Source: Methanohalophilus levihalophilus (lineage in GTDB: Archaea; Halobacteriota; Methanosarcinia; Methanosarcinales; Methanosarcinaceae). Taken from it: DNA of 64,000 nucleotides. Below the pieces are notes generated by a model, which had not been told where the DNA came from, ran no database searches, and saw only the letters and a list, made by a program, of their open reading frames with translations. Below, piece after piece: positions 12,297 to 35,076 of the stretch (the first letter of the stretch is position 1; each line of letters starts with the position of its first letter). Made by a program: the position numbers and the translations under genes. The DNA is taken from contig NZ_JAGGLK010000002.1 of the NCBI RefSeq assembly GCF_017874375.1, positions 248,001 to 312,000 of the forward strand, in the 5' to 3' direction.

Positions 12297-13814
12297 TTAT
12301 TTGCGCTTCAGCAAAAACGCAATTATAACCGACAGGATTGAGATGAGTATTCCAGGGCCTGGCATTTTCGGTTTCGTATTTCCTGAGCTGTCGTTGACGT
12401 AGGAGGTATCAGAAAGCTGCTCTCCGGATGACTGGCCGTTATTTTCAGAGTATTCGAGGGCCAAACTGCCGGATGTACTTGAGTCATCTTCGATGGTGTA
12501 GAAGTCGCAATGATCGGAAAGAATTGTGGAGCATCTGAGTTCGACATCATTGTATTCGTCACATTTGATCCATTCTCCTCCACTTTCCCTGTAATACAAT
12601 TCTGCTATTCCCGAATATTCACTTGAATTTGTTGCCATATACCTCTGGAAAAGGTTTCCATAAACCTCTTCAGAGTTATCTGTACTCCATTTGTTGGGGT
12701 AGTAATCACCGTAGAAATCTCCATTCAAGTTGCTGTGTACCAGATTCCCTGAGAAAATATTGTCGTATGCGGATTCCATGCTGATTCCAAACACCTCGTT
12801 GGAGATGGCAGTGTTGTTTGTAAACCGGTTATCTGTTGAATCTCCAGACATTTCAAAACCGTTTTCGGAATTTGAATTTGCAATATTTCCCACAAAAACA
12901 TTGTGCCGTGATTCTCTCAGCTATATCCCGGTGTCATGGTTTGAGATAGCATTATTGTTTACGAGCTCATTGTAATCTGATGATTGAAGGCGGAATCCAT
13001 AGTACCCATTAGAACTGACATTGTTGTTTTTCAGGATGTTGTTGCCGGAGTAGTAGAGATAAATACCATAATCATGGTTTGAGATGATGCTGTTGTTCAT
13101 GAATTCATTGTAATAACATTTCTCGAGGTTGACTCCAAACCAGCTATTCGATTGTGCAATATTATCCGAAAGTATGTTGTAGTCAGATGACGCCAGATCA
13201 ATCCCGTCGTCACCATTTGAAATTAGATTGTTGCCAACAAATGTATTATAATCAGAGTCATGAACCACGAAGGCATCTCCTCCGTTTTCACATGCAATAT
13301 TGTCTACAAACGTGTTGTTATGGGAAAATTGCATGGTCATTCCAAACTTTAAGCTTGAATTGATAATGTTTCCCACAAGCACATTATTATCAGAATTATC
13401 CAGAATGATTCCGTTTTCATTGTGGTTTGCTTCATTATTTCTTATGATGTTATTGTCCGAGGTTACAAAAATACCGCATTTTGATTTTGTGATATGGACA
13501 TTTTCAACAACACATCCATCCGCTTCAATTGCAATGCCATTTGAACTGCCACTGATTACAGTTGGATATCCATTTCCCGAATCACTCCCTTTAAGAATAA
13601 GCCCGGGTTTGTTTAAAGTAACGGCTTCATGGTAAGTTCCACTGTTGACAATTATTGTATCTCCGGTATTTGAATTTTCAATTGTTGCCTGTATGGACTC
13701 CCCGCTGTCAACTAAATATACGGCTGCCGATGCAACCACGGTTATGCCCGGCATAAAAAGAGCAAGCAATATGCCCGGCAAGATGCATTTCAGGAAAGTA
13801 CCCCGCTTTTCCAT
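12297..13814 (-). CDS. NosD-type right-handed beta-helix surface protein with in-frame TAG
   Basis: Read through one TAG (complement of 12921-12923, codon 298), this is a 505-residue secreted protein. Residues 1-30 are a signal peptide (LPGILLALFMPGITVVASA); ~31-400 are parallel beta-helix repeats of the NosD/PbH1 kind, each about 22-24 residues with N-N and GI/GF signatures; the end reads MPGPGILISILSVIIAFLL then RKK-like basic residues, a membrane or archaeosortase-type anchor. The repeat register continues unbroken across TAG: the codon sits where neighbouring coils have Tyr in GIYL (...SNHDTGI, TAG, LRESRHN...). True stop is TAA. Either pyrrolysine is inserted or a Tyr codon has mutated; I favour read-through because the downstream half, including the anchor, is undecayed. 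Confidence 0.72.
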
Positions 13815-13887
13815 GCTTTTGCCTATTTTGAGTTGCTGTATGTATTTAGGCTCTCTCTCCTATTAAACGCTGGTGTTTTGTTTCTGG

Positions 13888-14697
13888 TCACGTGTAGCTT
13901 GTAGCTATCAGTTTTTCCCGAAAGTCATCAAGTTCTTTTTTCAGTTCACTCAGGCAAAACAAATGTTCCGTTAGATGGGGTTTTCCAAGAGCGGTATCAT
14001 AAATCCAGAGTCCGATTTCCTCTGTCCTGTCGAAGTCTTTAATGTTGATTGCTATTTCATTCGATAAAATCACGGACTTTGCTATTGTTTCCAGCATTTC
14101 CATGAGGGAGTTTTTGAGGTTGATGAACAGCTCCGGCTTGAATTCGTTTATCATTGTCCCGAATTCGCTTTCAACTTCCTCCATGTTTCGCAGCAGGAGT
14201 TCTATACCCAGCGGAACCTCGCTTAGCTCCATTAACAAGTCGTTGCTATCGAGAAAGCAGTATATGTGAGGAGAATGGTATTTCTCATCTGCAATCAGTT
14301 TCAGGAATTGTTTTTCGTTTTTCGGGGAAAGGGTCATGATGTTCTGCTGATCTTTCCTGATGCTCTCATACGTGTCATCCAGATCAATTTCCATTTCGAT
14401 GTTTAAACTGACAAGGTCGCTTTTCTGATCAAAAGCCCTTGCAACAACCATCTCGGATATCTGCTTCAGGTCGAAATAGATGTTCTCATCAAGCATCGGA
14501 TTCTCGATTTCTTCAAGAATGGAATCGATCCGGAAATCCAGCTCAAAAAGGATTTTCTCGGAGAGAGCTTTCAGCTTTTCCTTCTCCTTGAACCTCTTTT
14601 CAAGTCTTTTTTGTTTACCCATGGAGTAAACAGCCACAATTAATCCGGCACTTCCAACTATGAGTCCAATAGCTTCACTGGGTTCTATCATCGGCAT
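13888..14697 (-). CDS. hypothetical membrane-anchored protein
   Basis: A 269-residue protein I do not recognise. Residues ~8-26 form one hydrophobic segment (EAIGLIVGSAGLIVAVYSMG), followed by a very basic stretch (KQKRLEKRFKEKEK), which predicts an N-out, C-in anchor with a cytoplasmic body. The rest is helical and heptad-like, rich in Leu, Glu and Lys, with no Cys-metal or nucleotide motifs. ATG at 14697 preceded by CAGGAAA. It lies upstream of the NosD gene on the same strand, 73 bp apart, so co-transcription is possible. TGA stop. Confidence 0.55.
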   Translation of the reverse strand: MPMIEPSEAIGLIVGSAGLIVAVYSMGKQKRLEKRFKEKEKLKALSEKILFELDFRIDSILEEIENPMLDENIYFDLKQISEMVVARAFDQKSDLVSLNIEMEIDLDDTYESIRKDQQNIMTLSPKNEKQFLKLIADEKYHSPHIYCFLDSNDLLMELSEVPLGIELLLRNMEEVESEFGTMINEFKPELFINLKNSLMEMLETIAKSVILSNEIAINIKDFDRTEEIGLWIYDTALGKPHLTEHLFCLSELKKELDDFREKLIATSYT

Positions 14698-14837
14698 TTT
14701 CCTGAACGGTGTATTTGTCCTGAATTGGTACTCATGAACAAAGTGCCGGATTTACTAATGAACTTGGGAAGCTGGGTGAAACTGTTTGGGGGCGGGGGTT
14801 GGTTGGGATTTTCTTGACGGCTGCTGGTATTAAAAGC

Positions 14838-14882
14838 AGTGTTTCATATTTTTCGGCGTACCGTTGTAGGGTTGAGAGTATG
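14838..14882 (-). pseudogene. fragment of a second dCMP deaminase gene
   Basis: On the minus strand this stretch reads YNGTPKNMKHCF, clearly related to YNGAPRNMEHCL of the intact gene at 11770-12240, and the DNA matches over about 45 bp with a one-base deletion after the LST codons. Neither the HAEQNAI nor the PCxxC segment is present nearby, so it is a remnant. It suggests a past duplication or an insertion/excision event between 12.1 and 14.9 kb. Confidence 0.6.
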
Positions 14883-15187
14883 TATAAGGGAATACAACGC
14901 TTGTAAGAGGAGGTTTATAGCGCAGGAAGGAATTGCAGGGTTTTTGAAATTGTAATTTTCCTGTCATCAATTGGCGGAAAATCAAGGAGCTTAAATCTTC
15001 TAATTCTTTAGTTCCAGTGGTAAGTCCAGCTCTTGGAATGAGCGTACTGTTCTATACTGAGGCATATTTCAATTAATTCGGCTCAAAGGCACTATTTTTG
15101 CTTTATGGCCTTAGGAATAGAAAATCTTGCACACAAACAAAAATACATCACAATAGAGGTTATTTTTTTATATGCATATATTAGTAA

Positions 15188-15212
15188 GGACTGGGAATGG
15201 GTATCCCAGTCC
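15188..15212. other. perfect 9-bp hairpin beside a TATA-like sequence
   Basis: GGACTGGGA (15188-15196) and TCCCAGTCC (15204-15212) flank a 7-nt loop. On the plus strand an AT-rich TATATGCATATA box lies ~20 nt upstream; on the minus strand the hairpin lies 24 nt after the stop of the tiny ORF at 15236-15340. It may be the terminator of that ORF or the 5' hairpin of a small RNA. Confidence 0.4.
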
Positions 15213-15235
15213 TGTAATCAGATATTCAAGCAATT

Positions 15236-15340
15236 TTAACATAGATCTAAAAATTCAGATGAGTTGAACAGAACAATAAGGAAAATGATTAATAAATATA
15301 TGATCAAAAAGAAAATGATCATGTACATTTTCACTTTCAC
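15236..15340 (-). CDS. possible 34-residue hydrophobic peptide
   Basis: From a GTG at 15340 the frame encodes a basic start (KVKMYM) followed by one long Ile/Leu/Phe membrane segment and a short FNSSEFLDLC tail, ending in TAA. Size and layout resemble small membrane peptides such as type I toxins, but there is no homology I can name. A GGAAG lies upstream. The high AT content of this interval could by chance give hydrophobic codons, so confidence is low. Confidence 0.25.
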   Translation of the reverse strand: MKVKMYMIIFFLIIYLLIIFLIVLFNSSEFLDLC

Positions 15341-15471
15341 TTTGCTTTCTTCCCACTTTAATAGACAAAGAACATAAAGTAAACTTGATATAATAGGTTA
15401 CAAGTGTAGTGCCTACTTTCCACTAACTTTATAATCAGAAGTTTCTATAGATAAATGGGGATATTCAACTT

Positions 15472-15951
15472 ATGGATCAATCATCAATAAAACTCAAACT
15501 CTTTCTTGATGAATTAAATGTGCCTACAACAATTGCCACTCTCGATGAAAGAAAAACTGTACAAAAAGCAGTTTACATTGGTCAATCTGCAGGTGTAAAC
15601 TTAGGCTATTCATATGGTTGGTATTTGATGGGGCCCTATAGTCCAGAATTAACAAAGGCATATTATTCATTAAATGATTATCTGGATAGTGGGGATGAAG
15701 ATTATAGAAAATTTAAATTGTCAGAGAGCTTGACTCAGAAAATTCATGAACTTAAGTTGATATTGGCTGTTCCATCTGAAAAATTAAAAGTAGACAGTTG
15801 GTTAGAGTTAATTGCTTCAATTGTTTACTTAAAAAAGGAAGAGGGTTTGACACAAGATCTTATAAAATCTAGATTAAATCTTGAAAAGCCACATCTGGTT
15901 GAATATTTTGATGATGGTGTTGAGTTATCAAAGCAATTAAAATTAATTTAA
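15472..15951 (+). CDS. YwgA-like protein (putative partner of HD hydrolase)
   Basis: A 159-residue protein. The segment TVQKAVYIGQSAGVNLGYSY and then YLMGPYSPELTKAYYSL (~28-65) resembles YwgA/Panacea-like proteins, which share a K-x-x-Y-helix and a GPYSxEL motif. The remainder is helical with no enzymatic motif. It lies 10 bp upstream of the HD-domain gene on the same strand and shares its AT-rich codon use, unlike neighbouring housekeeping genes. In Bacillus subtilis a YwgA protein is also encoded beside a COG1078-type HD protein (YwfO), from memory. Role unknown: regulator, adaptor or antitoxin are possible. ATG start, TAA stop. Confidence 0.55.
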   Translation: MDQSSIKLKLFLDELNVPTTIATLDERKTVQKAVYIGQSAGVNLGYSYGWYLMGPYSPELTKAYYSLNDYLDSGDEDYRKFKLSESLTQKIHELKLILAVPSEKLKVDSWLELIASIVYLKKEEGLTQDLIKSRLNLEKPHLVEYFDDGVELSKQLKLI

Positions 15952-15961
15952 TGGCTATTTT

Positions 15962-17452
15962 ATGTCGCTGTTGGCTACACACTTTGAAAAGAAAAAAATC
16001 CATGACCCAGTCCATGGGACAATTTATTTGAGTGATCTTGAAACTCAGGTTATTAATTCGAAAGCATTTCAGCGATTACGGAATATCAAGCAACTAGGAC
16101 TTGCTCATTTTGTCTTTCCGGGAGCTGAATATTCGCGTTTCACTCATAGTTTAGGGGTTTGTCACCTATGTGGCGAGCTCTATGATGCGCGTCTTAAGTT
16201 GGAATTTGATGAAGAAAAAGGATGCGATGGTTAGGATGATCTTATTCGGGCAAAACAGAAAATTCGACTTGCTGGGCTTTTGCATGATATCGGACATTAT
16301 CCATTCTCACATGCTATGGAAGATGCCATAAAAGAGCATTTAAAAAAACCATCCCAGGATTTAGACAACACCACAATAGACGACCTTCATTCGGAGACAT
16401 TTTTAAATCACGAATCAGTTGGAAGGGAAATACTCCGTTTGGATGTGGAAATACGAACTATTCTTGAAAGCAATAACTATGATGTCCATGAAATATACTC
16501 TTTGTTCATCAGTAACGGCGAAAAATTTGATTATGAAGACGAAAAGCAGTTCAATATTTCTAATATAATTAGTTCAGATCTTGATGCTGATCGATTAGAC
16601 TATCTACTTAGATCTGCATATCATCTTGGATTGCCTTATGGCTCTACTGATCTCCAATATATATTGTTACAAATGAAATTAGATGCAGATCAGAATATTT
16701 GCATCGATCCAAAAGCATTAAGAACGGTAGATCATTTTTTGCTATGTAGGTATTTTGATTATTCTCAAGTAATTTATCATAAATCAGTAGTAGCATTTGA
16801 AGAAGTATTAAAGAAAGTTATTCTGTATCTGCTTGAAAATAATGAGCTACAATATATTTCAGAAGAAAATAAATCATTGATCGAAGATAGTGGATGGTAT
16901 GAATATGATGATTTGTATGTCATGAACAAGATCAGAGACTATTACAAAAAAAGTGATCTTGAACCATCTATTCAACTTTTGATAAAATCACTCATAAACC
17001 GGGTTCCTCCAAAAGAAGTTCTAAGGTTGGAGTCAATTCAAGATCGTAACTCTTATTCAAATAAACATATCTCAGCATTTCGTGATTTTAAAAATTGGCT
17101 CCCAGAAATTTCGGAAAAGTTTAGCATTCCTGAGGAAGACGTGATAATCTGGGATCTCAAAGGATTTAGTATTACAAAAATTGGAAGAAGTTTTGAAATT
17201 GAGAGTGACGAATCTGGTATAGACGAAGGAATTCGAAAAACGGTTCGAATTTATGATAGAATTTCAGGTACATCAGTTCCAATTATGCAGAGGGATGATT
17301 CTTTAATGTATTTTTTGTCTGGAAAGGCGCTTTACTCAATCAGACTTTACATCTTATTTGATAAAGACATTATATCATCAGAGGATATGGTGGCCAAAGT
17401 AGATGAGATAAAAAATTACATTCAGAATAAATGGCCAAGAGAATGGAAATAA
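15962..17452 (+). CDS. HD-domain phosphohydrolase (COG1078/dNTPase type) with in-frame TAG
   Basis: Reading TAG at 16232-16234 (codon 91) as sense gives a 496-residue protein. The N-terminus has the family opening HDPVHGTIYLSDLE, then QRLRNIKQLGLAHFVFPGAE and SRFTHSLGVCHLCGEL, which supplies the first metal His. After TAG comes RLAGLLHDIGHYPFSHAME with the HD pair, then DLDADRLDYLLRSAYHLGLPYG with the last Asp. So the metal site H...HD...D is split by the TAG: neither half would be active alone. Family members hydrolyse dNTPs or related nucleotides. True stop TAA. AT-rich codon use suggests acquisition by transfer. Alternative: a recent nonsense mutation. Confidence 0.75.
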
Positions 17453-17625
17453 ACATTCAAACTTGACTTTTCTATGCTAATATCCCGGTTATCTCTCTGA
17501 TTCAAGAAATCTTCAATTCTATTTTCTAGTATTTGGTTTAGCACTTCGTCCATAGACTGTGCTCAACCACTTCACTTGACATATTTTTCCAACAGATCCA
17601 CGAAATCACAATCCAAAGGAAATTG
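17453..17625. other. short interval with a possible decayed minus-strand ORF
   Basis: On the minus strand 17553-17422 could encode 43 residues starting MDEVLNQILENRIEDF, and the same frame upstream holds DFVDLLEKYVK followed by two TGA codons. It overlaps the HD gene by ~31 bp. No family is recognisable; it may be a remnant of a further gene of the accessory patch or chance. Confidence 0.25.
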
Positions 17626-34620: not shown

Positions 34621-35076
34621 ATGGCTTCCTCTATGAGTTTTCCTGATCCGTCAGAGTCCCCAAGTGCCATGATTGCCTTCCTCCACCGGCAAAACCTGGG
34701 ATTCATGGCAAAACAGCTTGAAAAATACGGCATAGGTGGCGGACAATTTGGTTTTTTGATGGCTCTTTACCATTAGGATGGCCTGCGTCAGGAAGATCTT
34801 GCCACGATGTTTCTTGTAAACCGGGCAACTGCTGCCCGGGCGGTGCAAAAACTGGAATCAGAAGGATATGTTCAAAGAGTCCAGGACCTGCAGGACAAGC
34901 GGGTCTTACGGGTTTATCTCACAGAAGCTGGAAGAAAGCTGCAGGAAGTCGTAATGAAGCTCTCCACCAAAAGGAGGGAGGAACTCTTTGCGGGTTTCTC
35001 GGATGAAGAGCAGGCTACTTTCCTGAGACTGCTTTCAAAGATGGTGGATAACGTTTGTGAGGAAAAGTGGCAATGA
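34621..35076 (+). CDS. MarR-family regulator with in-frame TAG
   Basis: With TAG at 34774-34776 (codon 52) read as sense, a 151-residue MarR protein results; the ATG at 34633 is an alternative start that would suit a leaderless transcript. Before TAG: LHRQNLGFMAKQLEKYGIGGGQFGFLMALYH, the usual first helices. After TAG: DGLRQEDLATMFLVNRATAARAVQKLESEGYVQR, the HTH with its recognition helix, then the wing DLQDKRVLRVYLTEAG. The break falls in the loop just before the DNA-binding helices, where other MarR proteins have a charged residue (xDGLxQ). The half after TAG has no start with Shine-Dalgarno. It overlaps the MATE gene by 4 bp. TGA stop. Confidence 0.75.

Follow-up and report, generated by a model that had tools for sequence, protein, structure and literature searches.

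The window, i.e., the entire stretch of 64,000 nucleotides analyzed here, carries a gene for an HD-domain protein with one in-frame TAG, preceded by a gene for a small YwgA-like partner that ends 10 bp upstream of it (Table 1). The original prediction, which described the metal site of this enzyme as split by the TAG, was right in both coordinates and frame: H62 lies before the codon, and H108-D109 and D210 lie after it. In an alignment to SAMHD1 and EF1143, H62 aligned with the RFEHSLG motif and D210 with the DVDKWDY motif of SAMHD1, and the metal motifs of the three proteins line up residue by residue. The HD protein was thus found to possess the H...HD...D metal ligands that mark the SAMHD1/EF1143 type. 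Its read-through product matched the Pfam HD domain (2e-10), and searches using an alignment of 28 HD homologues as the query matched the profiles of EF1143 (2.3e-65) and SAMHD1 (7e-44). An AlphaFold model of the protein, in which lysine was put at the TAG residue, reached a pLDDT of 86; the structures closest to it in fold were EF1143 (3irh/4lrl) and SAMHD1, with a Foldseek E value of 2e-19 to 3irh and TM-scores of 0.66-0.74. Judged from these profile and fold matches, the gene fits a dNTP triphosphohydrolase of the SAMHD1/EF1143 type, and its product would be predicted to hydrolyze dNTPs.

Table 1. Features of the HD gene, its partner, and the surrounding insertion (window positions)
Feature	Position	Strand	Basis
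HD-domain dNTPase-like gene	15962..17452	+	Translation; 496 codons, one in-frame TAG, TAA end
In-frame TAG, codon 91 of the HD gene	16232..16234	+	Sole TAG in the frame
H62, first metal ligand, 5' of the TAG	16145..16147	+	Invariant in 28 sequences
H108-D109, HD pair, 3' of the TAG	16283..16288	+	Invariant in 28 sequences
D210, last metal ligand, 3' of the TAG	16589..16591	+	Invariant in 28 sequences
YwgA/DarG-C-terminal-domain-like partner gene, 159 aa	15472..15951	+	Homologue pairing, DarG profile, fold match
3.7-kb stretch that the nearest relative lacks	13876..17615		blastn synteny with G037
269-aa ORF within the 3.7-kb stretch	13888..14697	-	Host-like GC3 (0.52)

EF1143 of Enterococcus faecalis (PDB 2o6i, 3irh, and 4lrl) was the best profile and fold match and has the same metal motifs, but identity in the fold alignment is only about 23%, and the HD protein differs by its TAG-coded residue. 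The human dNTPase SAMHD1 likewise has the same HD metal site, and FQRLR..KQLG is conserved; in contrast, the HD protein lacks a SAM domain, shares about 20% identity, is archaeal, and comes with a partner gene. With metal ligands on both sides of the TAG, the claim that activity would require read-through was borne out. A translation restart 3' of the TAG was considered and ruled out, since H62 would be lost in any restart in this frame. By eye, residue N32 (window 16055-16057) places an Asn at the position of SAMHD1 D137, in the allosteric GTP site, where most homologues have an Asp.

The predicted pairing with a YwgA-like gene extends well beyond this locus. Contigs yielded no match when searched with the single HD protein, and matches when the alignment was used as the query. 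Of the 25 best HD loci, 24 have a partner homologue immediately 5' of the HD gene, as a rule overlapping it or no more than about 25 bp away, and one has it downstream. The closest HD homologues belong to Planctomycetota and Acidobacteria (39-44% identity), and the YwgA-like and HD pair is widespread in bacteria. Although no Pfam match was obtained for the 159-aa partner, all the partner proteins scanned (32/32) matched the PADLOC DarG profile; the 159-aa protein aligns to the C-terminal region of DarG only. Its structural model had a single high-probability fold match, the DarG chain of 7yk3; this match is remote (E value of 0.0065, TM-score of about 0.55).

Comparison with the nearest relative, G037, delimited the stretch in which the pair lies. 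The blastn alignment with G037 runs up to window position 13875 and resumes from 17616, and about 14 bp occupy the insertion site in that genome. An HD orthologue is likewise missing from the remaining six genomes of the genus, so that insertion is favored over loss in G037. GC content is 0.30-0.39 over about 15000-17500 versus 0.44-0.50 downstream, and the two module genes have a GC3 of 0.23-0.33, compared with about 0.5 for flanking genes. The 269-aa ORF, host-like in its GC3, may have a history separate from the module. A search for repeats at the insertion ends gave nothing convincing, and plasmid and phage searches returned partial matches only, at 30-50% identity. Low GC and absence from the nearest relative agree with the AT-rich mobile accessory module that had been proposed, and the HD gene and its partner appear to have been acquired together by horizontal transfer.

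The TAG is best explained at the level of the whole genome. The genome, which kinship with Methanosarcina places in the methanogen family Methanosarcinaceae, encodes both PylS and a tRNA-Pyl with the anticodon cta, as the proposal of a pyrrolysine-using host implied, and PylS is present in all eight genomes of the genus (8/8). We took a census of TAG in 464 kb of the genome, sampled in stretches, where 408 coding frames ended in TGA (210), TAA (184), or TAG (14). Coding sequence continued in frame after the end codon in 8/14 TAG cases versus 32/394 TAA/TGA cases (Fisher p 8e-6), and in three genomes of the same genus it continued past 5/5 TAG versus 21/222 TAA/TGA codons (p 1.4e-5). When all TAG frames were put through tblastn without filtering, antisense frames swamped the census, which was discarded. 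Pfam domains cross the TAG in a methyltransferase, a citrate synthase, and a TRM5/TYW2 enzyme, as they do in the positive control, the dimethylamine methyltransferase MtbB; further TAGs lie inside a histidine kinase, which has three of them, and inside a Y-family polymerase. In a MarR-like gene (window 34633-35076), the in-frame TAG is replaced by CAG in G037, and dN/dS is 0.10 before and 0.12 after the TAG, which points to strong purifying selection on the 3' part of marR. A second HD-domain protein, conserved across the whole family, has Glu, Thr, or Asp at the TAG in relatives and a dN/dS of about 0.31 after it. Because coding continues past TAGs, Pfam domains span them, and the marR and second HD genes have these dN/dS values, TAG appears to be mainly a sense codon in the genome and the genus. 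Still, 6 of the 14 sampled TAG-ended frames may be true stops, and TAG may therefore be ambiguous in this genome. By extrapolation from the sample, the TAG of the HD gene is one among perhaps a few dozen. Work from 2025 reportedly describes a genome-wide code in archaea in which TAG stands for pyrrolysine. Annotation in this genus should treat TAG as a sense codon; failing that, genes of this kind will be called truncated or taken for pseudogenes.

Several further TAG-containing frames were recorded along the way. The second HD-domain protein (612 aa; L045:9907-11742, at about 342 kb of G000:C2) has one in-frame TAG. A NosD/beta-helix protein in the window (12297-13814, minus strand) carries an in-frame TAG where G037 has TTG. 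The three TAGs of the histidine kinase, a PAS/GAF protein, lie in L057:355-3087 (minus strand), and another minus-strand frame (L054:15443-17038), about 530 aa in length, contains TAG twice, looks integrase-like by eye, and is without a Pfam match. In same-genus relatives, in-frame TAGs occur in TRM5/TYW2 methyltransferase, citrate synthase, and Y-family DNA polymerase genes (L060:14771-15589, minus; L065:3-671, minus; L072:1883-2971, plus).

Within the HD gene, the TAG occupies a permissive site. It stands at the start of a predicted helix (residues 88-107) within a loop region of variable length, the spacing between H62 and H108 being 45 residues here versus 33-44 in the 27 homologues. Homologues share no conserved residue at this site, where length and sequence vary freely, and none of the orthologues in the homologue alignment has a TAG at the same position. 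A lysine-like pyrrolysine at codon 91 would be expected to do no harm, in keeping with drift as in other TAG genes (PMC3639795). In the cases described there, pyrrolysine-containing proteins arose through drift and in-frame TAGs are tolerated in ordinary genes of pyrrolysine users (PMC3639795); the HD gene resembles them as an ordinary gene with an in-frame TAG in a pyrrolysine-using organism. It is a further case of a tolerated TAG, for which we found no published description. We therefore consider it likely that a full-length dNTPase was acquired with its partner and that its TAG encodes an amino acid, almost certainly pyrrolysine, as a product of neutral drift and not as a regulatory device. 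A SAMHD1/EF1143-type gene would have entered the genome together with the YwgA/DarG-C-like gene, and codon 91 would be read as an amino acid because the genome and the genus use TAG mainly as sense; with the residue in a tolerant surface loop region, the TAG would most simply have arisen by neutral drift. On this reading, a non-methyltransferase enzyme joins the list of probable pyrrolysine proteins.

Alternatively, a recent nonsense mutation could have turned the HD gene into a fresh pseudogene in which translation stops at the TAG. This TAG is indeed confined to one genome, in an accessory gene absent from relatives, and a fresh mutation leaves no decay. The best HD homologues are bacterial, with about 44% identity at most, and no close orthologue was found in 112 genomes of the family or 394 of the phylum; dN/dS after the TAG calls for such an orthologue, and a nonsense mutation of recent origin would look no different. 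However, the 405 codons 3' of the TAG are intact, homology runs on across it without decay, and the downstream part retains 18/18 of the columns invariant in 27 homologues and 33/34 of those conserved at ≥90%. The terminal branch of the HD gene accounts for 3.8% of tree length after the TAG versus 4.6% before it, which argues against relaxed evolution downstream. No other damage to the frame is visible in the homologue alignment. We regard a recent loss of the gene as improbable, because coding sequence usually continues past TAG in this genome and purifying selection acts on genes in which the codon appears to be read through.

The original prediction had gone further and tied the enzyme to the pyrrolysine supply, with full-length product only when PylS is charged. 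Taken as a switch, the TAG would owe its presence to selection for a dNTPase that is completed only under ample Pyl-tRNA, e.g., during growth on methylamines. Truncation at a codon that splits the metal site would abolish activity, and the host does have PylS and tRNA-Pyl. Nevertheless, similar TAGs are scattered across many unrelated genes in which the codon seems to be ordinary sense, leaving this part of the prediction unsupported, and the variable region in which the HD TAG lies, together with its absence from all orthologues, argues against selection for it. No PYLIS-like fold was found 3' of the TAG (folding z of -0.36), and pyrrolysine insertion is a competition with the release factor for which no signal is needed (PMC9499178, a review). 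The sequence around the TAG had been reported as identical at the marR TAG; the octamer TTAGGATG does occur at both (16231 and 34773), yet chance alone would give an expected 2.47 matches over the window, so that the coincidence carries no weight. Full-length HD product is expected to depend on Pyl-tRNA, a dependence common to every TAG gene that thus says nothing specific about this enzyme. A metabolic switch would be striking if true; the evidence favors drift, and we consider the switch very unlikely. A single-base error in sequencing or assembly, suggested by the single occurrence in one assembly, is less probable still, as similar TAGs are found in independent genes and across several of the genomes from this genus.

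Returning to a full-length dNTPase acquired with its partner, the most likely arrangement is a dNTPase under the control of that partner, as suggested by the likeness of the latter to the C-terminal domain of DarG, which in DarTG binds and sequesters the toxin (PMC7003065). The partner would bind and control the enzyme, perhaps in antiviral defense. The resemblance to DarTG is limited to this YwgA-like domain (7yk3): the 159-aa protein has no macrodomain, and its neighbor is an HD dNTPase, with no DarT toxin gene adjacent. We can only tentatively suggest, as a rather doubtful possibility, that the pair is a mobile system of two genes, so far undescribed, whose partner protein holds the dNTPase in check until it is released in virus infection or stress, with an effector that is here a pyrrolysine protein. 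The genes near homologues showed no clear enrichment for defense, with restriction, Druantia, Old, and ShosA-like genes making up a few among 78 neighbors. We found no publications on a YwgA-HD system, and the analysis brings to light a widespread, uncharacterized pair of a dNTPase and a DarG-C-like gene. Comparable in logic is the anti-phage system Clover, which combines the dNTPase CloA with the nucleotidyltransferase CloB (PMC12265719). Both couple an HD dNTPase to a second gene with a regulatory role (predicted for the pair described here), but the partner here has a DarG-C fold instead of being a nucleotidyltransferase, and the dGTPase from the Clover study has only weak similarity to the HD protein (9p8w, 3e-7).
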